Shown here: positions 1,471 through 10,812 of the stretch, in pieces
How the letters are laid out: the number at the start of each line of letters is the position of its first letter
Numbering within the stretch: position 1 is the first letter of the stretch
Origin: a virus
Direction: 5' to 3' (one strand)
Length of the DNA: 20,904 nt
IMG/VR virus record: IMGVR_UViG_3300003894_000038
Coordinates: 1-20,904 of that record
The notes under the pieces: model-generated
Databases searched by the model: none
Told to the model about the DNA's origin: nothing
What the model saw: only the letters and a program-made list of their open reading frames with translations
Translations under genes and position numbers: made by a program

Positions 1471-2781
1471 TTACAGCGTTTCCGTTTTGCCTTCAAGACG
1501 TTCAATGCGCCGGTTAAAACCCTTCAACAGCCGCCCCAGATCACGTGACGGAGCCGCCGCAATCGGCGAGGCAGCCCGACCACCAGGCGCAGTGATGGCC
1601 GTCAGCTCAACCAAATCCAAAGTTGTGGATTGAGAACCATCCGACGCTCGATGCGACACCCCTGCGACGCGATACACAAGCGGCGGAGGCTCCGAACCCC
1701 CTGAAACAAAGTTCCAGGCTTCAAAACGATCCAGCCGAATCAGATCGCCCGGCCTGTACTCCCCCCGAATGCCTACAAACTCCACCCGCTCAACCAGCAG
1801 CGGCGGAATGTATAGACGGTCCAGCAGCGCGGTCCCTTGAGCGTCAAGCGCGTCATCCAAACCTTGAGCAGTCGAAGGTTCCGTCGCGCGCAACTCATAC
1901 GAGAACGGTTTCCACGCCCGCAAACGCCCCACTGGATCAGGGCCTTCCGGTGGCTGCGGCAAACGGTCAACCACCCGCGACTCACCCCACGCCGTCACTA
2001 CCACTTTTGATGCTGACGGGTCAAAGTCCAACGACTCTTCATACGAAACGGTGTCATCCAACACGACAGGTATCGGTGTCTGCGTTCGTGCCGTCTCATC
2101 AGACATCACAGTGACAATCAGCCGGCTGCCACTACCCGCATAATCCGCGACCCAATGGCTGCGCCACGACCAGCCACTTTCAACGGTTGAACGTAACTCC
2201 TCGTCAAAAAACTGCACCCCCGACTCAATCGTTCGACCCGTCTCGTCATACGAGGACCCGTTCCACTGGTAGTCGATGCTTTCCCAGGGAAGAAACTCGA
2301 AACCCTCAGCAGTCTCGATGGCGCGGTCAGCGGCACTCGCATCAAAGCCCAAGTCGGGAATCTTATCCGGCGGCTGGTTCGCCCACGCACCCGCAAACCG
2401 TGACTCCACAGCGTCAACGACGCCAAGTATTTCCGGCGGCTGCGGCGGCGGCGGGCCACCCGACAGGATCTTCTCCACCGACCAAGTAAGACGAAGCAAC
2501 TCCGGCCACTCGCGTGCCGTGAACGAAACCGTGCCACCAGCCGTAGAACGGTACTTAACAACAGCGCCCTCCCACAGCGACCTGCCGTTGTCTTCCTCAA
2601 ACGCAACCGTGCAAGCGAACGGCTGCGACAACCACCGCCGCCACAACGCCGCCACATCAGGAGACAACTCGAACGTCATCTCACCGACATCAGACAGAGG
2701 ACGGTTCGTAGACACCGAAATAAACTGCGAGATCAACCCGAGCGGGGCGCCAGTGTTCGAGTTATACAAGCGAATGTTCAC
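1471..2781 (-). CDS. Tail-tip protein, Tal / gp37-like (minor tail protein)
   Basis: A 436-residue protein in the position of the tail-associated (Tal, baseplate hub) protein, directly after the distal tail protein. The N-terminus (MNIRLYNSNTGAPLGLI, then NRPLSDVGEMTFEL) matches the style of siphovirus gp37-like (ReqiPepy6) tail proteins, which form the hub through which the tape measure is threaded. A proline run lies at residues ~108-116. The last ~20 residues (GRLLKGFNRRIERLEGK) look like a short helix that could dock the fibre encoded next. The start is a GTG six bases from the stop of the upstream gene, with only a weak GGTG upstream. No lysozyme or peptidase motif was seen. Function rests on position and sequence style; it could be any minor tail protein of the hub family. 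Confidence 0.7.
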   Translation of the reverse strand: MNIRLYNSNTGAPLGLISQFISVSTNRPLSDVGEMTFELSPDVAALWRRWLSQPFACTVAFEEDNGRSLWEGAVVKYRSTAGGTVSFTAREWPELLRLTWSVEKILSGGPPPPQPPEILGVVDAVESRFAGAWANQPPDKIPDLGFDASAADRAIETAEGFEFLPWESIDYQWNGSSYDETGRTIESGVQFFDEELRSTVESGWSWRSHWVADYAGSGSRLIVTVMSDETARTQTPIPVVLDDTVSYEESLDFDPSASKVVVTAWGESRVVDRLPQPPEGPDPVGRLRAWKPFSYELRATEPSTAQGLDDALDAQGTALLDRLYIPPLLVERVEFVGIRGEYRPGDLIRLDRFEAWNFVSGGSEPPPLVYRVAGVSHRASDGSQSTTLDLVELTAITAPGGRAASPIAAAPSRDLGRLLKGFNRRIERLEGKTETL

Positions 2782-2787
2782 GGCCGG

Positions 2788-3807
2788 TCACCACAAACCG
2801 GAAGCGCGGACAGTGACCGACCCCGTACCTGCGTCCGGGAATACACCCTTGGCTTGAATGTTCACATCCGTAGACCCGGAAGAAATTGTGGGCCATTTGC
2901 CGAGCGGGAAACTTACAATGTCAGGCCCTCCGGTCAACTCGTATGCGATGGAAGCGCCTCGCAACTTCGTGCCCGTGTTCGCGTCGGAGTAGACAGCGTT
3001 ACCGCCAGCGATAATCAACCGCTCACCGGCAGGAACAGCCCCAGGAGAACCGCCAGTGTCCATATGAACAGACAACTCCCCATTGAGGGATATATCCAAA
3101 CTCTGTACCGGCCCTACCGCGTCAACCTCGATAGGTACCGGCATGGACGTGTCCACACTCAACGTGCCATCAAAGTCCACCAGCGAATCCGGGGGCACCA
3201 GCACACTGACCTCCTGCGGCAGCGTTTCCAACCAAACACCTCTGCCCGCCGAACCAACATCAATGCCTTGCAGTGACAACTCAACCTCGACCGCGCGCTC
3301 GCCAACCCATTTCGTTTTCGTTGGTGCCATGAACACCACAGGGATACGCCGCAGCTCTTGATCGGTGTCCCAGTTAAGCCAACCCCACCTGGGCTGGTTC
3401 ACAAACACCGACGACAACTGCGACAGCACAGGAGCCAGCAGCGTCCGCGAGCCGGTAGATCGTAGTGTGGCCCGTAACTGAATCTCACGGCCCGCGATAC
3501 GCGACGACAGCCGCTGCGAACCGTCAGCCAACGCAGGCTGCACCACCGTAGAACCCCAATTAGGTTGCTCCAGCCCCTCAGCCAAAGTCACCCAACGTTC
3601 AACACCCGCGTCATCAACAACACCGAACAGAAACCCAGCGCCGTCCTCAGACGGGGCACCCAACAACGCTTCATAATCGTCAAACAAAAAAGGCACTTGG
3701 ATGTAATCAAAGGTGAAATCTTCCAGCCACTCATACGAGCGGCGGGCATCTTCGGACCCATCATCCCCAAGAAAGATGAACTCACACCCCGACAACCGAG
3801 TAGCCAA
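2788..3807 (-). CDS. Distal tail protein (Dit-like)
   Basis: A ~339-residue protein that probably forms the ring joining the tail tube to the tip. It begins with a motif like RLSGCEFIFLGDDG, common at the start of actinophage Dit-like proteins. A first beta-rich domain (to ~residue 190) is followed by a second beta-sandwich-like half rich in Ser, Gly and Val (~190-340), which could be a carbohydrate-binding or galectin-like insertion as in other Dit proteins. Start: two TTG codons compete. The one at 3813 overlaps the amidase stop as TTGA but sits almost on the AAGGTGG ribosome site. The one at 3807 has a spacing of seven, so I prefer it. The usual order tape measure then Dit is interrupted here by three genes. 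Function inferred from order and style; no database check. Confidence 0.65.
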   Translation of the reverse strand: MATRLSGCEFIFLGDDGSEDARRSYEWLEDFTFDYIQVPFLFDDYEALLGAPSEDGAGFLFGVVDDAGVERWVTLAEGLEQPNWGSTVVQPALADGSQRLSSRIAGREIQLRATLRSTGSRTLLAPVLSQLSSVFVNQPRWGWLNWDTDQELRRIPVVFMAPTKTKWVGERAVEVELSLQGIDVGSAGRGVWLETLPQEVSVLVPPDSLVDFDGTLSVDTSMPVPIEVDAVGPVQSLDISLNGELSVHMDTGGSPGAVPAGERLIIAGGNAVYSDANTGTKLRGASIAYELTGGPDIVSFPLGKWPTISSGSTDVNIQAKGVFPDAGTGSVTVRASGLW

Positions 3808-3809
3808 CG

Positions 3810-4409
3810 TCAATCCACCTTCAACACGTGCTTCTTGAATTTTTTCCAGTCGAACTCGTTACCGACACAATCTGTGTGATCATCATTTGGCCCGCAGGCG
3901 TGTGTGTGCCAGCCGATGCTCGGGTCGTTCCACTTGTCGCGGCTACGGTTCACCTTGTTCATATTCCGCGCCTTCGCCGGTACACCCCAGCCCTCGGCGA
4001 TCTTCTTGAACTTTTTGGCGTTCTTCCAATTCTTCGGGTTAGGTAGTTTCTTATCCGGCCCGTAGCCAGCAAAACAAATCTGCACGTTAATAACACCGCA
4101 ACGGTTAGCGCTGTTGCCGCAACTATTGACACTGCCCCCGACCTGCGACCGGGCAGCGCAGTCGATAGGAATGATCCACGCCCACTGCCCGCAGTCAGGG
4201 CAGTAGCATCCGTGATAGTAGATTCCTTTATCGCGGACGTACTTCGCCAAATTGATGACATGCTGGCCACCGTCGCACTGTCGGGAAACGCCCTCATTGT
4301 GGAGCGTAATTTTCTTGTTGGGATGGCACCCAGGCATCTTGCTTGGGTTGCTGGCCTTGACCTTGGTGCTCTGATCGCCGCCGCTGTACCAGTTCTTTTT
4401 CTTAGCCAT
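3810..4409 (-). CDS. N-acetylmuramoyl-L-alanine amidase (Amidase_2 / PGRP-like), cysteine-rich
   Basis: A 199-residue probable zinc amidase that cuts the bond between N-acetylmuramic acid and L-alanine in peptidoglycan. Family landmarks are in order: His37 in TLHNEG (zinc ligand); Tyr65-His66 in IYYHG (the usual GYH); IIPIDCAARS at 79-88 (the usual LIPLDRAARS); VINVQICFAGYG at 106-117; GWGVPA at 140-145; and GWHTH...PNDDHTDC, residues 166-181, giving His168 or His170 plus Cys181 or Asp180 as the remaining ligands. EFDW at 185-188 matches the usual ending. Start: the ATG at 4409, six bases after AGGAG, rather than the GTG at 4412. The Shine-Dalgarno overlaps the previous stop. Odd: 11 cysteines in 199 residues, including CYCPDC at 68-73. 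Its place in the tail operon fits either a virion-bound wall hydrolase or the endolysin. Confidence 0.75.
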   Translation of the reverse strand: MAKKKNWYSGGDQSTKVKASNPSKMPGCHPNKKITLHNEGVSRQCDGGQHVINLAKYVRDKGIYYHGCYCPDCGQWAWIIPIDCAARSQVGGSVNSCGNSANRCGVINVQICFAGYGPDKKLPNPKNWKNAKKFKKIAEGWGVPAKARNMNKVNRSRDKWNDPSIGWHTHACGPNDDHTDCVGNEFDWKKFKKHVLKVD

Positions 4410-4418
4410 CACGCACTC

Positions 4419-5138
4419 CTAATAGCCCGAAATTGAGCAATGCCAGTCTTCGGACGAAACGAGTGCCTTGAGCTTGTTTTTCGACATAGCCGACGAGCCA
4501 GACATGGACTGCGAGCCGCCCTTCCACGCACGGATCGAGGTCGAGCTTCCGTCGCGCCCAGAATGGAAAACTGAAACATCCGCAGCGGTGCCGGTCCCTG
4601 CCCCCTTCTGCCCGCAGTGGTTGCTTTTACAAGGCCCGTTCCCGCATTTTTTCTTGTCGTGGATAGAGCAGGTCTGGTCGCAGCAGGCAGCTAAATTAAA
4701 GCCGCTATACCCCATGCGGTATCCGTAGTACAAATCGTGCTGCTGAGCCTGGTCCCTCTCCCAGCCAGTTTTCAAATACCGCTGAATATCTTTACCGGTC
4801 CTATTCAACCGCTTCCCAAACTCTGGGTCACCCAACGAATTGTAGATACAGAGGAAGGGATATTTATCGGCGGTTCTCCACACAGCCCAGCCCTTATCCT
4901 CCCCAAACTTCTGGGCCTTCTTCGCGTTCTTCTCGGTAAGACGCGCCTTCCAGCGAGGGCTAGCATCCGGGTTGGGGTTGTTCTTACTACGCTTGAACTT
5001 CCACACCTTCTCCCCCGTTTCCTTATCGACAACTTTCCGCGCCCAAATCCTGCGGACCGAGTTAGTCTTTTTATCCCGAGCCAAGTTCACGAACTTCTTT
5101 TGACCCTTATCGTTCTTCACCTGCGGCTGTTTCGTCAT
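4419..5138 (-). CDS. Unknown Lys- and Cys-rich protein next to the amidase
   Basis: I do not recognise this 239-residue protein. Residues 1-95 are strongly basic, with about twenty lysines. Residues 83-145 look folded, with aromatic motifs (WAVWRTADKYPFLCIYNSL, then YYGYRMGYSGF). Residues 151-176 are a cysteine cluster, ACCDQTCSIH followed by KKCGNGPCKSNHCGQK, with seven cysteines and two histidines. The tail is Ser/Gly-rich and ends WHCSISGY. The ATG overlaps the stop of the membrane-protein gene as TAATG, and the amidase starts ten bases after its end, so the three are probably co-translated. It could be a second lysin component, a disulphide-stabilised tail-tip protein or a metal-binding adaptor. 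A phospholipase A2-like CC...HD pattern was considered, but the spacing does not fit. G+C in 4981-5100 is 48% by hand count, lower than in the terminase genes. Confidence 0.7.
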   Translation of the reverse strand: MTKQPQVKNDKGQKKFVNLARDKKTNSVRRIWARKVVDKETGEKVWKFKRSKNNPNPDASPRWKARLTEKNAKKAQKFGEDKGWAVWRTADKYPFLCIYNSLGDPEFGKRLNRTGKDIQRYLKTGWERDQAQQHDLYYGYRMGYSGFNLAACCDQTCSIHDKKKCGNGPCKSNHCGQKGAGTGTAADVSVFHSGRDGSSTSIRAWKGGSQSMSGSSAMSKNKLKALVSSEDWHCSISGY

Positions 5139-5440
5139 TATTCGTCACACCCCTTGCAATCCTCATCGGCATCCGTGCCGAGTTTGTGCTCCTTGTACAT
5201 GGCCTCACGTTCCGCTTCTAAGGCTTCCATCCAGCCCGGCGGATCAAACTGCTCCCGCTCAGTCATCACGCCAAGCCGCGCCAAAACACGACGGCCCTCA
5301 GCCTCGTCACGGGCACGGTCAATAAACGCCTGCCGCAACCTGCGGCGCAACGTCCAATCCGACGCCCACCCCACCGCAGCCAGTAGCAGCACAACACCTA
5401 CACCAATCAACGCCCAAGCCCACGGCTCTAACGACTCCAT
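5138..5440 (-). CDS. Small single-pass membrane protein (holin-like or tail-associated)
   Basis: A 100-residue protein with one clear transmembrane segment at residues ~8-27 (WAWALIGVGVVLLLAAVGWA), then a basic stop-transfer region (TLRRRLRQ) and a charged, helical cytoplasmic part. It ends acidic with CKGC. The ATG at 5440 was chosen because AAGGAG lies seven bases upstream; an earlier in-frame start at 5470 would overlap the tape measure gene. It begins eleven bases after the tape measure stop, and its own stop overlaps the next start (TAATG). One membrane span plus a charged tail next to an amidase gene suggests a holin or spanin-like lysis protein, but a single-pass protein that assists tail-mediated wall passage is equally possible. 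No lipobox or signal-peptidase site seen. Confidence 0.7.
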   Translation of the reverse strand: MESLEPWAWALIGVGVVLLLAAVGWASDWTLRRRLRQAFIDRARDEAEGRRVLARLGVMTEREQFDPPGWMEALEAEREAMYKEHKLGTDADEDCKGCDE

Positions 5441-5451
5441 CACCTGACTCC

Positions 5452-8400
5452 TTACCAACCGGCAATCCACGACAACTCACGGCCAACAGCCCGCGCCACA
5501 GAAACTTCATCTTGCGACTCACGCGGGTTCACGGTGATATTCACTTCACCTGCAACACCCTGCGACGGCACGCTTGGCGCACCAATACGAGCAAAACTTT
5601 GAGTGGACGGTGTAGCCCACAACGAAGACATCGCCGCTTCCGCTGACGACCTTCCACTGTCCACGCCGGCAACAATTCCCGCCGGTATTTCGGCAGCCGC
5701 AGCGGCGAACACCTTAGACGGCGACGCTATACCTAGGACACGTTTCCACGTCGCCAACATGCCCTCCGCGATGCCCTCCATCGCGGCGCGTATCGCCGAC
5801 TCTTGCGACTCCAGCCCCTCAATGAAACCGGCACCAGCAGCAACCCCCGTGTCACTAAACGCAACACCCGCCGCCGTACCACCCAACACGTCAGCAGCGC
5901 CCGTGTAACCCGACACAGCCTCGTTGAACTCGCGGATAGCGTCCTGGCCACCGCTCAACAAACGAGCCGCGAACTTCGCAGCCACGTCGGGGGACATTTC
6001 TGCGAGGTACTTAGACGCATCTTGCGACAATCCCTGCAGCTCAAGGCCCTTCAAATCCGCCGCATACTTTTGCATTGCTTCTGTTTGACGTTGCAGGCGG
6101 CGCGTCAACGAACGCGGGCTGCGTGTGTTCGCATCCACCGAACCGAGCCACGCGTCCTCGACAGACTTCTTGAAATCTCGGGCTTCCGCGATGCGCGTGA
6201 TCTTCGCGACATGCGACTCAAGCAGCGACCGTTGTGCGTTCAACTGCGCCGACATTTGCGCCGTCTGCTGCGGTGTAATCAACTCCGGGTTTTCCTTGGC
6301 AAGGTCATCGAACGAATCTTCAACACCTTGAATGAAATCTGCCAGCCCCGCCGAGTCAGTGACACTTCGAATGCTGCGAGGGTCAAATACACCTTCAAGC
6401 AAATCCAGTTTCGCTTGCTTTTTCGCCTGCTCTACCGATGCCGTCAGGCCAGCAACAACCGCGTCATACTGGTTCGGGTTGATCGTCAGCTCGCCCAACT
6501 GTTGGGCACGGCTGAGGTCCTCCAATTGTGACAGGATTGACTCAAAATCGCCAGACTCTACCGCGTCCGAAGCTGAAGAGAGAATGTCTTCCTTAGCAAA
6601 ACCCTGCCGCAGTTTGTCTAACTCTTTCGCGGCTTTAATAGCCTCACGAATCTGCTTGCGAACCGGCCCCAAATCAACGCCGACATATTCACCGATCTGT
6701 TGGCCGCGTTTCAAGTCGGTCAACTGGCTGCGTAGCGTTTCCACGTCTTGCCCGAGCGCATCGTTCCCCAGGTCTTCCAACTGCCACGCCTGCTGCTGCT
6801 TCCGTATCCTTTCCTGAGCCTTCGCTTGTTTGCGCGCTAGCTTTTCCTGAGCGAGGCGCTGCTTCTCTGCAGCCTTAGCCAACTTCCGGTCACGGGCCTG
6901 GATACGCGCCAACTGTTTCTTCAGCGCCGCGCGTTCTTCCTGCTCGTTACCTTCAAACAGGTACTCGCCCTTGAACTTTTTCTTTTCGGCAGCACGTTCG
7001 CTGGCGGCGTCTTCAATTTTCGCTATCTTAGCGAGTATCTTCTGCTCCGCGCGTCCTACCGCGTTCTGCGCCGACGTCAACGCAAACGACGCTTTCTGCA
7101 GCGCTGCCGCGTCGGCGTCTAAACCGGCTACATACTGCCCGAAGCCGTTGCCGATCTGTGGCGCGCGCCGTTTCATCGATGCCGCTTCCACCACATCGTC
7201 AATAGCGACGTTCAACTCTTTGGCGAACTTCTTCACCCGTTCAATAACAACTTTCCCGTACAAGGTGTTTTTATTGAGGCCACGCACCACAAGGTCAAGC
7301 GGGTTTGCTGCCGCACCAGAAACCGTGCCGCCGCCTTCACCACCAGAACGCGCCATGCCGCCGCCAGCAGCACCGCCACCCACGGGGCCGGCACCCGTAC
7401 GGGAACGGAGCCCCTGAATCCCGCTCTCCGGTACCAGCGACGGGCGTACGTCACCCAGATCGGTAGGCGCGAACCCCTTACGGATCACATCGACCGTATG
7501 CGTGGAAGTTGTCTTCAACGCCCCCCACACGTTCTGCAGAGTCATACCTATCCCGATTTGCGGCGTAGCCTCATCGTTCAACGTCGCAGTTGGCTCCGGG
7601 TCGTTCTCCGACAACTCGTTTAATTTGAAATTAACGTCATCAATGACGTTCTGGGCTTCCTCATCGTCTACGGTTATGTCGATGAGTTGCGGGATTTCGC
7701 CCGTACCCGCGCCACCCGCAAGCAGCCCTTCCAACTCGTTCTTTGCGTCCTGCGCGCTCTTTTTATCTGGCGCAAGCCCGATCTTTATGAGGTCTTTCAG
7801 GCTGGCATCTTCAACAAGCGCCCGGATCGCTTCCGGGCTGAACTCCTGCAAGCCTTTACGGTCGATACCCAACCCAACGAGAATCCGGTTTGTTTTCCGG
7901 CCGCGTTTCAAGTTCTGCTGAACCGACTCTTGGAACTCGGCAGTTGCCCGCCGCACCGCGTCCTTGTCCACCACGCCGTCGATGGTGATAAACATGCGCC
8001 GGTTAATCAGCGACTGAATCTGCTTGCGCGCCGCTTTAACCTCGGTAATATCAACGCCGAGAACGGCGCTCAGTTTCTTGTTCGACAGCCCCAGAATCTT
8101 CTCAAACTCTGCAACGCTGCCCTGCTGTAAACCAACCCAGTCAAGTTTGAACGGCAGTTTTACTTGCGACTGCGCGATGGCTTGGGAGATTGTGCGGATT
8201 GACTCTTCCGCTTCCCCGCGTAACGCTTCCGCGTTCGTGTCAATCGTAACTCTGCCGGTCAGGTCAGCAACCTGCCCGATTTTCAAACCCTTGAGAGCAT
8301 CTTCAATGTCCGACTTGAACTCTGCAATGTCTTCCGTGGACCATCCCAGCTTGTCGGCCAGGCTGTTCTCGTTGTTGTTAATGGCAACAAGCGCGCCCTG

Positions 8401-10032
8401 CAGCGCGGTCAGGTTCCCGGCCTCCACCCCCGACCAGTCGATTTCCGGGGCAACTTTCTCAAGGTCGCCAACAATGGCTTCCCACTCTGAAACGATTTTC
8501 GTGCCGGTAGACGTTAGCGACGCTTGAGCGCCGTCAAGCCGATTCCCAAAAAACTCTTCGTCGCCCTGCAGGAAACGCAACGCTTTGTCATACACGGAGA
8601 GTTCTTTAGGTATTTCGGGGATCAGGTCTAGAACGCTAGAGATTTTTGCGCCGAGTTCAGTAATGAGTTCCAGCCAGGTAAGAAATTCGTCGGCAACCTG
8701 CGACGCGACCGGGGCAACGTTCGCGATAGTGTCTGCGAGATTCGCGGCAACGCGCCCCAACTTCGGGCCAGCGTCCGCTAGAAAATCTTGAACAAGCCCA
8801 CCAATCTCGGACAGAGAATCGGCGCCACGTTTCAAGCCGTCGATAAATCCGGGCAGCCCGGCGGCGAACCCTGAACCTAACGATTGGGACAGGTCTTGAA
8901 CAAACGGGAGAATTTCGCGGACAGCATCAGCCACCGCAGGAAGAACCGGAAGCAGAGATTTCTGCAGGTCAACGGTTAGAGAGTCCTTAACGGCTTCAAG
9001 GGTGCCGAGGAACGACGACGACTGTTTCGCAAGAGAACCGCCGTAAAGTTCTTGCATACCGTCGCGGAGCGCGTCAACCGCCCAGCCCGCTTCCAGCGCG
9101 CCTTCCTCACCGAGTTTCATAGCCTCAGCGACAGTTACCAGACGGCCTTCGTTCTCGGAGAGTTTGTCAGCGAGAATCTGCCAGGCGGGCACACCGGCTT
9201 CCGCCAACTGCAGCATCTCCTGAGCGGCGACCTTCCCTTTAGTTTGTATCTGACCTAGCGCGCGGCTGATTTGGCCGATACCAGCGGAACCCAACGACAA
9301 CGCAGCCGACGCGTCGCCCACATCCTGCAGAATCGGCAGCAGGTCTTCAGTGGCGAACCCGTACGCTTTCAACTGTTGCACGCCGCTGATAACCGCGTCC
9401 GTGTCGAACGGTGTCTTGATCGCGAAATCTAGGCTGTCGTTCAACAGTTCCGTTGCAGCCGCGCTCGAACCCGTAAGTGTTTCTAACGCGAACAGTTTCT
9501 GCTCAAGTTTTCCTGACGACGACAACGCCGCACCAGCAGCCGCACCATACGCGGCGACAGAACCCGCCGCAGCAGCAAAAGCAGCCGCAGCGGCACCGGC
9601 CCCAGCACCCACCGGGCCTATCGTTTTCAACAGCCCCTTAGAGGAGCCAGCAGCAGCGCCTAGAGCCGCGCTGAACGAGTTAGCGCCACCGCCACCGCGA
9701 CCCCCACGACCGCCCAGCAAGCCACTACGGTCAACATCAACATCTATATCAATATCGCCAACGGCGGCTTTGAACGCTGACGCATACGCGGCACCGTGCT
9801 TCGCCCCCATCGCCACAATCTTCGTGGACCCAATGTTCGGCTTCCAGCCCTTAAAAAGAGAGTTGGCTGCACGTTGAAATGAAAGGGCATACTTAGCGCC
9901 ATCCTTGCCGGCCTTACTTGCGTCCCCTACTTGGAACGCGACCCGCTGGGTAGCTAACTGCCGTTTCAAGGCTCGCTGGAATCCGTCTGCGTCTGGAACA
10001 ACTTTGACGGATACTGCGCCGACCTCAGCCAT
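5452..10032 (-). CDS. Tape measure protein
   Basis: A 1526-residue protein, the largest in the window, that sets tail length and leaves the tail with the DNA. The ATG at 10032 overlaps the end of the GT chaperone by eight bases. Domains in order: a conserved N-terminus (VSVKVVPDADGFQRALKRQL); a Gly-rich patch at 106-118; a hydrophobic Ala/Gly segment at ~137-172; a typical tape-measure domain at ~175-300 (AVISGVQQLKAYGF, SRALGQIQTKGKVAAQEMLQ); three diverged repeats at ~530-810; a Gly/Ala-rich linker at ~855-895; a Lys/Gln-rich coiled coil at ~985-1085 followed by two further repeats; and an Ala-rich C-terminus (SPSKVFAAAAAEIPAGIVAG) common to tape measures. At about 1.5 angstrom per residue (established rule) the tail would be near 230 nm. 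No peptidase, transglycosylase or lysozyme motif was seen, so wall-degrading activity must come from elsewhere. Confidence 0.95.
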   Translation of the reverse strand: MAEVGAVSVKVVPDADGFQRALKRQLATQRVAFQVGDASKAGKDGAKYALSFQRAANSLFKGWKPNIGSTKIVAMGAKHGAAYASAFKAAVGDIDIDVDVDRSGLLGGRGGRGGGGANSFSAALGAAAGSSKGLLKTIGPVGAGAGAAAAAFAAAAGSVAAYGAAAGAALSSSGKLEQKLFALETLTGSSAAATELLNDSLDFAIKTPFDTDAVISGVQQLKAYGFATEDLLPILQDVGDASAALSLGSAGIGQISRALGQIQTKGKVAAQEMLQLAEAGVPAWQILADKLSENEGRLVTVAEAMKLGEEGALEAGWAVDALRDGMQELYGGSLAKQSSSFLGTLEAVKDSLTVDLQKSLLPVLPAVADAVREILPFVQDLSQSLGSGFAAGLPGFIDGLKRGADSLSEIGGLVQDFLADAGPKLGRVAANLADTIANVAPVASQVADEFLTWLELITELGAKISSVLDLIPEIPKELSVYDKALRFLQGDEEFFGNRLDGAQASLTSTGTKIVSEWEAIVGDLEKVAPEIDWSGVEAGNLTALQGALVAINNNENSLADKLGWSTEDIAEFKSDIEDALKGLKIGQVADLTGRVTIDTNAEALRGEAEESIRTISQAIAQSQVKLPFKLDWVGLQQGSVAEFEKILGLSNKKLSAVLGVDITEVKAARKQIQSLINRRMFITIDGVVDKDAVRRATAEFQESVQQNLKRGRKTNRILVGLGIDRKGLQEFSPEAIRALVEDASLKDLIKIGLAPDKKSAQDAKNELEGLLAGGAGTGEIPQLIDITVDDEEAQNVIDDVNFKLNELSENDPEPTATLNDEATPQIGIGMTLQNVWGALKTTSTHTVDVIRKGFAPTDLGDVRPSLVPESGIQGLRSRTGAGPVGGGAAGGGMARSGGEGGGTVSGAAANPLDLVVRGLNKNTLYGKVVIERVKKFAKELNVAIDDVVEAASMKRRAPQIGNGFGQYVAGLDADAAALQKASFALTSAQNAVGRAEQKILAKIAKIEDAASERAAEKKKFKGEYLFEGNEQEERAALKKQLARIQARDRKLAKAAEKQRLAQEKLARKQAKAQERIRKQQQAWQLEDLGNDALGQDVETLRSQLTDLKRGQQIGEYVGVDLGPVRKQIREAIKAAKELDKLRQGFAKEDILSSASDAVESGDFESILSQLEDLSRAQQLGELTINPNQYDAVVAGLTASVEQAKKQAKLDLLEGVFDPRSIRSVTDSAGLADFIQGVEDSFDDLAKENPELITPQQTAQMSAQLNAQRSLLESHVAKITRIAEARDFKKSVEDAWLGSVDANTRSPRSLTRRLQRQTEAMQKYAADLKGLELQGLSQDASKYLAEMSPDVAAKFAARLLSGGQDAIREFNEAVSGYTGAADVLGGTAAGVAFSDTGVAAGAGFIEGLESQESAIRAAMEGIAEGMLATWKRVLGIASPSKVFAAAAAEIPAGIVAGVDSGRSSAEAAMSSLWATPSTQSFARIGAPSVPSQGVAGEVNITVNPRESQDEVSVARAVGRELSWIAGW

Positions 10033-10812
10033 TTAAGCCACCGCCTCCCGGACGGAGCGCGCGAAGAATCGACATCTTTTCCTCCGGGGTGAGACGGGAC
10101 TTTTTCTTAATGACACGCTCAGGGCCAACGCCAGGACGCGGTGTAGGTTTCGGGCGTTTCCCTTTACCGCCGCCGCGTTGCCAGTTAGCGGCAGCAAGCG
10201 AATCCAAAATTGCGGCGAGTAGATAATGCTCCAACCGCCACATGCGCTTCTCTTCATCCGCTGACAGCGGATCAGCGGACACGTCACCTTGGGTCATGCC
10301 GCGAGAAATTTCGGCAACCCCTGAATCGGTAGACAGCCCGCACAGTAACGCAACGAGCCGCCGGTAGGTGAAACGGCCGGCACCGAAATCGAGAACGTCA
10401 ACCTGATACTCGCGCAGCAGGTCTATTTCAACGGTGGAGAAATCGTAAGCGAGCAGGCGCGCCGCCCACGCTATTTTCCCAACGTGTCCTCGTCCTCATC
10501 AACCACTTCACCGGACGCTTCCGCCCAGGCAGTGAGGAACACCGACAACTCAGTGCGGCCGTCGTCCAAAGCAACAGCGCGAGGCATCGGGAACGTGTCA
10601 CGATCCGCGTCGGATAACAAAGCGTCATCCAAGGCAGCCAAGACACCCGACACGGTGTCAATCGAACCGATCAAACGAGGATCAACCGCCGACAGGCGTT
10701 TCATCTTCCATACCTTCCCCCGCCATCGAATATCAACGGGTTCCGGTTCCTTGAACGCTGCTTCCTTCAACAAGGCGTCAACGTCAACGTCTGCTTTTTT
10801 ACGTGCGGGCAT
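10025..10812 (-). CDS. Tail assembly chaperone GT fusion made by -1 frameshift
   Basis: Most siphophages make two tail chaperones, a short one (G) and a fusion (GT) produced by a -1 ribosomal slip just before the end of G. Here the G frame ends TTG GGA AAA TAG, so G GGA AAA is a canonical X XXY YYZ site. Slipping back one base continues with ATA GCG TGG and stays open without a stop to 10025, passing through the internal ATG at 10297. The fusion would have 113 + 149 = 262 residues. The T part contains FTYRRLVALLCGL and, nearer the C-terminus, WRLEHYLLAAILDSLAAANWQ, then a basic Gly/Pro/Lys-rich tail (to KKKSRLTPEEKMSILRALRPGG). It precedes the tape measure gene, as expected. Seen: the slippery site and the open frame. 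Known: the G/GT arrangement. Frameshift efficiency cannot be judged. Confidence 0.88.
10471..10812 (-). CDS. Tail assembly chaperone G (non-frameshifted product)
   Basis: A 113-residue acidic protein, the product made when the ribosome does not slip. Its core (EPVDIRWRGKVWKMKRLSAV) has the look of the beta-hairpin found in many phage tail chaperones. The C-terminus is very acidic (EASGEVVDEDEDTLGK) and ends at the slippery site. The ATG at 10812 has AGGAAG nine bases upstream. The start codon is embedded in a 12-base sequence (GTTCGCACCATG) that is repeated 49 bases upstream. Together with the GT fusion, it keeps the tape measure extended while major tail protein polymerises around it. Confidence 0.85.
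   Translation of the reverse strand: MPARKKADVDVDALLKEAAFKEPEPVDIRWRGKVWKMKRLSAVDPRLIGSIDTVSGVLAALDDALLSDADRDTFPMPRAVALDDGRTELSVFLTAWAEASGEVVDEDEDTLGK
10474..10480 (-). promoter_or_regulatory. -1 ribosomal frameshift site GGGAAAA
   Basis: On the minus strand the sequence reads TTG GGA AAA TAG, giving the heptamer G GGA AAA in the correct phase directly before the G stop codon. GGGAAAx is a well-established slippery sequence for phage tail chaperones. The stop one codon downstream could itself act as a stimulator by pausing the ribosome. GC-rich sequence follows (GCGTGGGCGGCGCGCC), which may form structure, but I could not fold it. Confidence 0.88.

Follow-up and report, generated by a model that had tools for sequence, protein, structure and literature searches.

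A probable compact lysis cassette with divergent peptidase-like and amidase-like lysins separates tape measure and candidate tail-tip genes in a siphophage

Three small genes that separate the tape measure protein (TMP) gene of a siphophage from its candidate tail-tip genes probably form a compact lysis cassette, composed of a holin-like protein (P0003) and a split lysin A (P0002 and P0001). It is the content of the block that points to lysis, because a holin-like protein and a peptidase/amidase pair of the split lysin A kind stand together. The location between tail genes is unusual for lysis genes and counts against this reading, as does the fact that the sole holin candidate seen is a protein with a single transmembrane segment (TM). 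The Cys-rich enzymes are odd as well; all parts are nonetheless variations on known types.

Genomic context and anatomy of the block

The window analyzed here spans 20,904 bases, the full length of its IMG/VR record, and represents a fragment of a siphophage genome. Its genes lie on the minus strand and begin with a partial RusA-like gene, followed by the small and large terminase, portal, a head protease/MuF-type protein, a scaffold-like protein, a P22-type coat protein, connector genes, the tail tube, tail assembly genes, the TMP, the three-gene block, and the tail-tip candidates. Two small genes 5' of the TMP gene (10025-10812, minus strand) occupy the place expected for the frameshifted tail assembly chaperone pair. 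The named phages nearest in the large terminase are Gordonia phage GMA4 (50%) and Streptomyces phages (about 45%), and the nearest viral contig reaches 58%. Because of these terminase affinities, and because the relatives of the genome are nearly all actinobacterial, the host is probably actinobacterial.

Gene structure, the membrane segment, the peptidase and amidase homologies, and motif conservation were computed for the block, whose features and flanks are listed in Table 1. An earlier note, made from the letters of this DNA, had placed the block between the TMP and Dit genes. The first flank stands, whereas the second was not confirmed: HMMER and hhalign gave no link between P0005 and the Dit-position proteins of relatives, and the match of P0005 to the minor tail family PHROG 106 has an E-value of only 0.14. 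For P0006, profile comparison gave no confirmation of a role as hub.

Table 1. Positions of the block, its flanking genes, and predicted elements of P0002 in the window
Feature	Position	Strand	Description
Tape measure protein (TMP)	5452..10032	-	Upstream flank; TMP by Pfam and PHROGs
P0003	5138..5440	-	100-aa single-pass membrane protein, holin-like, LysF1b type
P0002	4419..5138	-	239-aa basic protein with predicted C-terminal VanY/M15-like zinc peptidase domain
P0002 Cys-rich insert (residues 152-170)	4629..4685	-	Homologues have only a PPG loop there
P0002 motif SNH (172-174)	4617..4625	-	Predicted first zinc ligand H174, from alignment
P0002 D187 of AAD motif	4578..4580	-	Predicted second zinc ligand, aligned by eye
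P0002 motif WH (232-233)	4440..4445	-	Predicted third zinc ligand H233, from alignment
P0001	3810..4412	-	200-aa Cys-rich putative amidase-type endolysin
P0005	2788..3813	-	Downstream flank; Dit candidate by position and size only
P0006	1471..2781	-	Hub/Tal candidate by position only

The three ORFs follow the TMP gene directly. Their coordinates and all of their junctions bear out the tight coupling that had been claimed for them. At the TMP/P0003 junction the TMP stop codon overlaps the Shine-Dalgarno sequence (gTAAGGAGtcaggtgATG), P0003 and P0002 meet at TAATG, the TAG stop of P0002 lies inside the Shine-Dalgarno motif TAGGAG ahead of P0001, and the 3' end of P0001 has its TGA at a candidate TTG start of P0005. 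Coupling alone, however, is not enough to conclude that dosage is matched as in a complex, which was the further proposal, since the split lysin A genes of Gordonia phages (seen in Mayweather and PokyPuppy) likewise abut or overlap. No promoter-like site was found in 2600-5600, and terminator-like sites in the same interval are no more frequent than expected by chance. P0001 (11 Cys, 13% Lys, pI 9.5) and P0002 (8 Cys, 13% Lys, pI 9.9) are as rich in Cys and Lys as had been noticed; unlike these basic proteins, most of the other head and tail proteins in the window are acidic and have 0-2 Cys.

The holin-like membrane protein P0003

The first gene had been taken to encode a single-pass membrane protein, and P0003 does contain one strong hydrophobic segment with a 19-residue Kyte-Doolittle maximum of 2.24. 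A short acidic N-terminus is followed by the TM (approximately residues 7-28), the motif WTLRRRLR, and a charged cytoplasmic tail of 72 residues (44% KRDE) that ends in DCKGCDE. The arginines right after the TM predict an N-out/C-in topology by the positive-inside rule. Proteins resembling LysF1b, reported to occur in about 80% of the phages that infect M. smegmatis, have 92-150 aa, one N-terminal TM, N-out/C-in topology, basic residues after the TM, and a tail with 30-50% charged residues, although not all of them need share a function (PMC13056207). P0003 agrees with this description in length, number of TMs, topology, basic residues after the TM, and charged tail. Thus, its size, predicted topology, and tail fit a LysF1b-type holin-like protein. 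Matches of P0003 to CopD and TMEM252 were below the curated cut-offs and were dismissed as composition artefacts. A protein of similar layout, with one TM, basic residues after it, and a charged tail, is encoded right after a VanY-type lysin on a viral contig (L119, 3624-4205, plus strand).

P0002, a divergent VanY/M15-like peptidase

The middle gene had been described as a Lys/Cys-rich unknown. Its composition is as described, but profile comparison shows it to be VanY/M15-like and thus suggests a likely function for a protein left unclassified by Pfam, PHROGs, and NCBIfam. Searches of these three collections with P0002 gave no credible match, and Pfam VanY itself was not matched directly. 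A Disintegrin match (E 0.015) fell below the curated cut-off and was regarded as a composition artefact; matches to PapG and quinolinate synthase in the PDB were attributed to chance. The N-terminal ~95 aa form a basic region, which could be a wall-binding domain, ahead of the predicted peptidase domain at residues ~107-239. The C-terminal half of the protein reads RDQAQQHDLYYGYRMGYSGFNLAA, followed by a Cys-rich stretch, SNH, AAD, and EDWH, and resembles VanY/M15 peptidases. H174, D187, and H233 are predicted to form the zinc ligand motif H...D...H. MAFFT shifts the alignment by three columns at the AAD motif, where D187 was matched by eye, and the predicted H-to-D spacing is one residue longer than that of the homologues.

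P0002 was trimmed of its Cys-rich stretch and of some of the loop between H and D, and a tblastn search of 50,697 phage records (E<=10) with this version retrieved 55 records, all of them Microbacterium phages. Among those listed, the matched genes are annotated as endolysin, lysin A, or hypothetical protein, and both of the two matches tested are Pfam VanY proteins above the cut-off. The pattern LYYG...GFNLAA...SNH...AAD...E-WH is kept between P0002 and the Microbacterium phage endolysins. As the trimming was guided by motifs, the independent test is that of the full-length protein. In hhalign comparisons with the Microbacterium VanY family, full P0002 reached a probability of 84-90% (E 7e-6 to 2e-6) and a score of 43.6; the highest score among 150 shuffles was 19.0 (probability at most 1.6%), and ten other proteins of the window scored <=17.3. 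With hmmsearch, the full protein gave an E-value of 2.3e-4, whereas the best among 2,000 shuffles reached 0.61. AlphaFold2 models of P0002, alone or with seven homologues, had a mean pLDDT of 33-35. These profile comparisons identify P0002 as a divergent zinc peptidase of the VanY/M15 type, remotely homologous to phage endolysins.

P0001, a probable divergent amidase-type endolysin

The assignment of P0001 is the weaker of the two: by remote homology, the protein is a divergent amidase-type endolysin. It matches PHROG 2998 (endolysin) with an E-value of 3.6e-5, which improves to 4e-6 and covers the whole amidase region when the inserts are left out; eight shuffles of P0001 matched no family under 0.27. 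Members of PHROG 2998 include the Amidase_2 lysin of GMA4 and the lysin of a terminase-related viral contig. Zinc ligands are predicted at H38, H171, and D181 from spacing and from a remote alignment to a related lysin. This profile match, the predicted ligands, and the 11 Cys agree with the previous description of the third gene as a Cys-rich zinc amidase. P0001 has no match to Pfam Amidase_2, and in single-sequence phmmer with a related amidase it was not separable from its shuffles. The amidase call therefore rests on the PHROG profile, the motifs, and a pairwise BLAST comparison (E 0.003). A search with trimmed P0001 retrieved no phage record, and no viral contig was picked up by a degenerate DNA motif designed on the end of the amidase. 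One terminase-related contig (L009, 1489-3168, minus strand) encodes a 559-aa lysin that matches PHROG 2998 and whose N-terminal part, by eye only, resembles C39-type peptidases.

The tape measure junction in relatives and searches for the block

The earlier note had stated that Dit follows the tape measure directly in most siphophages, and this order was found in every relative with a readable junction: in about 25 related phages and contigs, a minor tail/Dit-type gene comes directly after the TMP gene, and the lysins, where annotated, are located elsewhere. Among named phages, comprising relatives as well as comparison phages, this arrangement occurs in KeAlii, Shady, GMA4, Slay, Caron, GardenState, SWEP2, P318, phiScoe44, Mayweather, and PokyPuppy. 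In those viral contigs whose junction could be read, automatic gene calls place a non-membrane protein of ~260 aa or more after the TMP. Thermobifida phage P318 has an annotated amidase between tail genes (L016, 17484-18296), which is a milder case of a lysin within a tail module.

With P0001 and P0002 in their unmodified form, neither tblastn nor exact-peptide scans detected a match in phage records or viral contigs, and 21 actinobacterial genomes with terminase relatives contained only stray matches (E ~0.01 or weaker). No homologue of the three-gene block, and no relative that carries it, was found among the phages and contigs searched. On these comparisons, in which sampling is thin, the insertion of the block looks specific to this lineage.

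Lysis, entry, or both

In a lysis cassette, P0003, a holin-like protein with one helix, N-out/C-in topology, and a charged cytoplasmic tail, would be inserted late and set the time of the membrane breach. P0002 (VanY/M15-like peptidase) and P0001 (N-acetylmuramoyl-L-alanine amidase type) would represent the halves of a split lysin A. Inspection of their sequences shows no signal peptide and no membrane segment in either, and both would build up in the cytoplasm until the breach, whereupon P0002 would cut peptide bonds of peptidoglycan and P0001 the sugar-peptide amide bond. We infer catalytic activity, holin function, timing, and the absence of the three proteins from the virion. As to a second lysis cassette elsewhere in the genome, no second lysis domain was found among the scanned genes of the 20.9-kb fragment; a regular lysis cassette may be present in the rest of the genome, outside the record. 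If the lysis reading is correct, genes for lysis inside a tail module would require control of lysis timing after transcription, and a Cys-rich branch would be added to the phage lysins acting on actinobacterial walls.

Two options had been put forward before, a lysis cassette relocated to the tail operon and a virion-borne module for wall penetration, of which the first is favored here. The second is unlikely. It holds that P0002 and P0001 act as lysins of the tail tip, cutting peptidoglycan locally during DNA entry, with P0003 docking at the membrane, and that together they replace the muralytic domain and membrane segments that the TMP lacks; if true, a separate module for entry would substitute for domains of the tape measure. 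The position of the block between TMP and tail-tip genes agrees with such a role, and the peptidase genes among the tail-tip genes of phage lambda (gpK) and RcGTA are precedents. In addition, the TMP is indeed free of a muralytic domain, as had been claimed, according to Pfam and PHROGs, and its most hydrophobic 19-residue segment has a Kyte-Doolittle value of 1.51 compared to ~1.8 to 2.9 in the TMPs of most relatives. No recognizable wall-binding domain was found in P0001 or P0002, and virion-associated lysins likewise tend to lack one (PMC6116005). Location, the missing wall-binding domain, and the muralytic-free TMP are, however, all that speaks for the virion, and none of them is direct evidence of packaging. 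The nearest relatives of the enzymes are dedicated endolysins whose genes adjoin those for holins or membrane proteins, and the topology and composition of P0003 are those of LysF1b holin-like proteins. Moreover, virion-associated lysins are mostly components or domains of tail proteins (PMC6116005). No muralytic domain lies within a recognized structural tail protein here, and P0001 and P0002 are stand-alone ORFs, though stand-alone virion lysins exist.

Alternatively, the enzymes might serve lysis while a fraction of them is packaged in the tail through co-expression with the tail genes. The block is co-directional with these genes and, as described above, lacks signs of separate transcription signals, but no sequence feature points to attachment to the tail, and we consider such dual use quite improbable. 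Least credible of all is that P0001 and P0002 are decayed or non-catalytic relatives, such as wall-binding or regulatory proteins: their strong divergence, their large Cys-rich inserts, and the longer H-to-D spacing of P0002 would suit this idea, but both proteins retain the zinc-ligand residues predicted for their folds, and both reading frames are intact.

Comparison with known lysis systems

With a lysis cassette as the preferred explanation, the closest known systems include the split lysin A cassettes of Gordonia phages, in which the two genes differ in activity (PMC9671378). These combine an M15/L-Ala-D-Glu peptidase with a glycosyl hydrolase in Mayweather and CaiB, and an amidase with an M23 peptidase in PokyPuppy. 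Like P0002 and P0001, they are two small adjoining single-domain genes, one of them for a peptidase, and they are often accompanied by small membrane proteins (PMC9671378). However, the pairs of Mayweather and PokyPuppy come after minor tail genes, whereas here the block follows the tape measure directly, with the membrane gene first. The combination of a VanY/M15-like protein with a putative amidase, both rich in Cys and Lys, also sets this pair apart from the Gordonia split lysins.

Each of the three proteins has a counterpart of its own. P0002 has the peptidase domain motifs in common with the VanY endolysins of Microbacterium phages (Slay gp22, Caron gp20, GardenState gp21), with ~28-30% identity over the trimmed domain. 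In these phages holin or membrane genes follow the endolysin, which, unlike P0002, lacks the Cys-rich insert, is located after minor tail genes, and carries different accessory domains. P0001 shares the amidase domain, by profile, with the PHROG 2998 endolysins (Gordonia phage GMA4 gp21), but pairwise identity to two amidases of this type is only ~13-25%, and P0001 has extra Cys and no LGFP repeats. P0003 differs from LysF1b in an extracellular part of ~6 aa instead of 22 aa, in its DCKGCDE terminus, in preceding the lysins, and in having no two-TM partner in the block. By description, it is nevertheless like the LysF1b proteins of mycobacteriophages Girr and NormanBulbieJr in its N-terminal TM, N-out/C-in topology, basic residues after the TM, and charged cytoplasmic tail, and holin-like proteins of this type have been tested in mycobacteriophages (PMC13056207).
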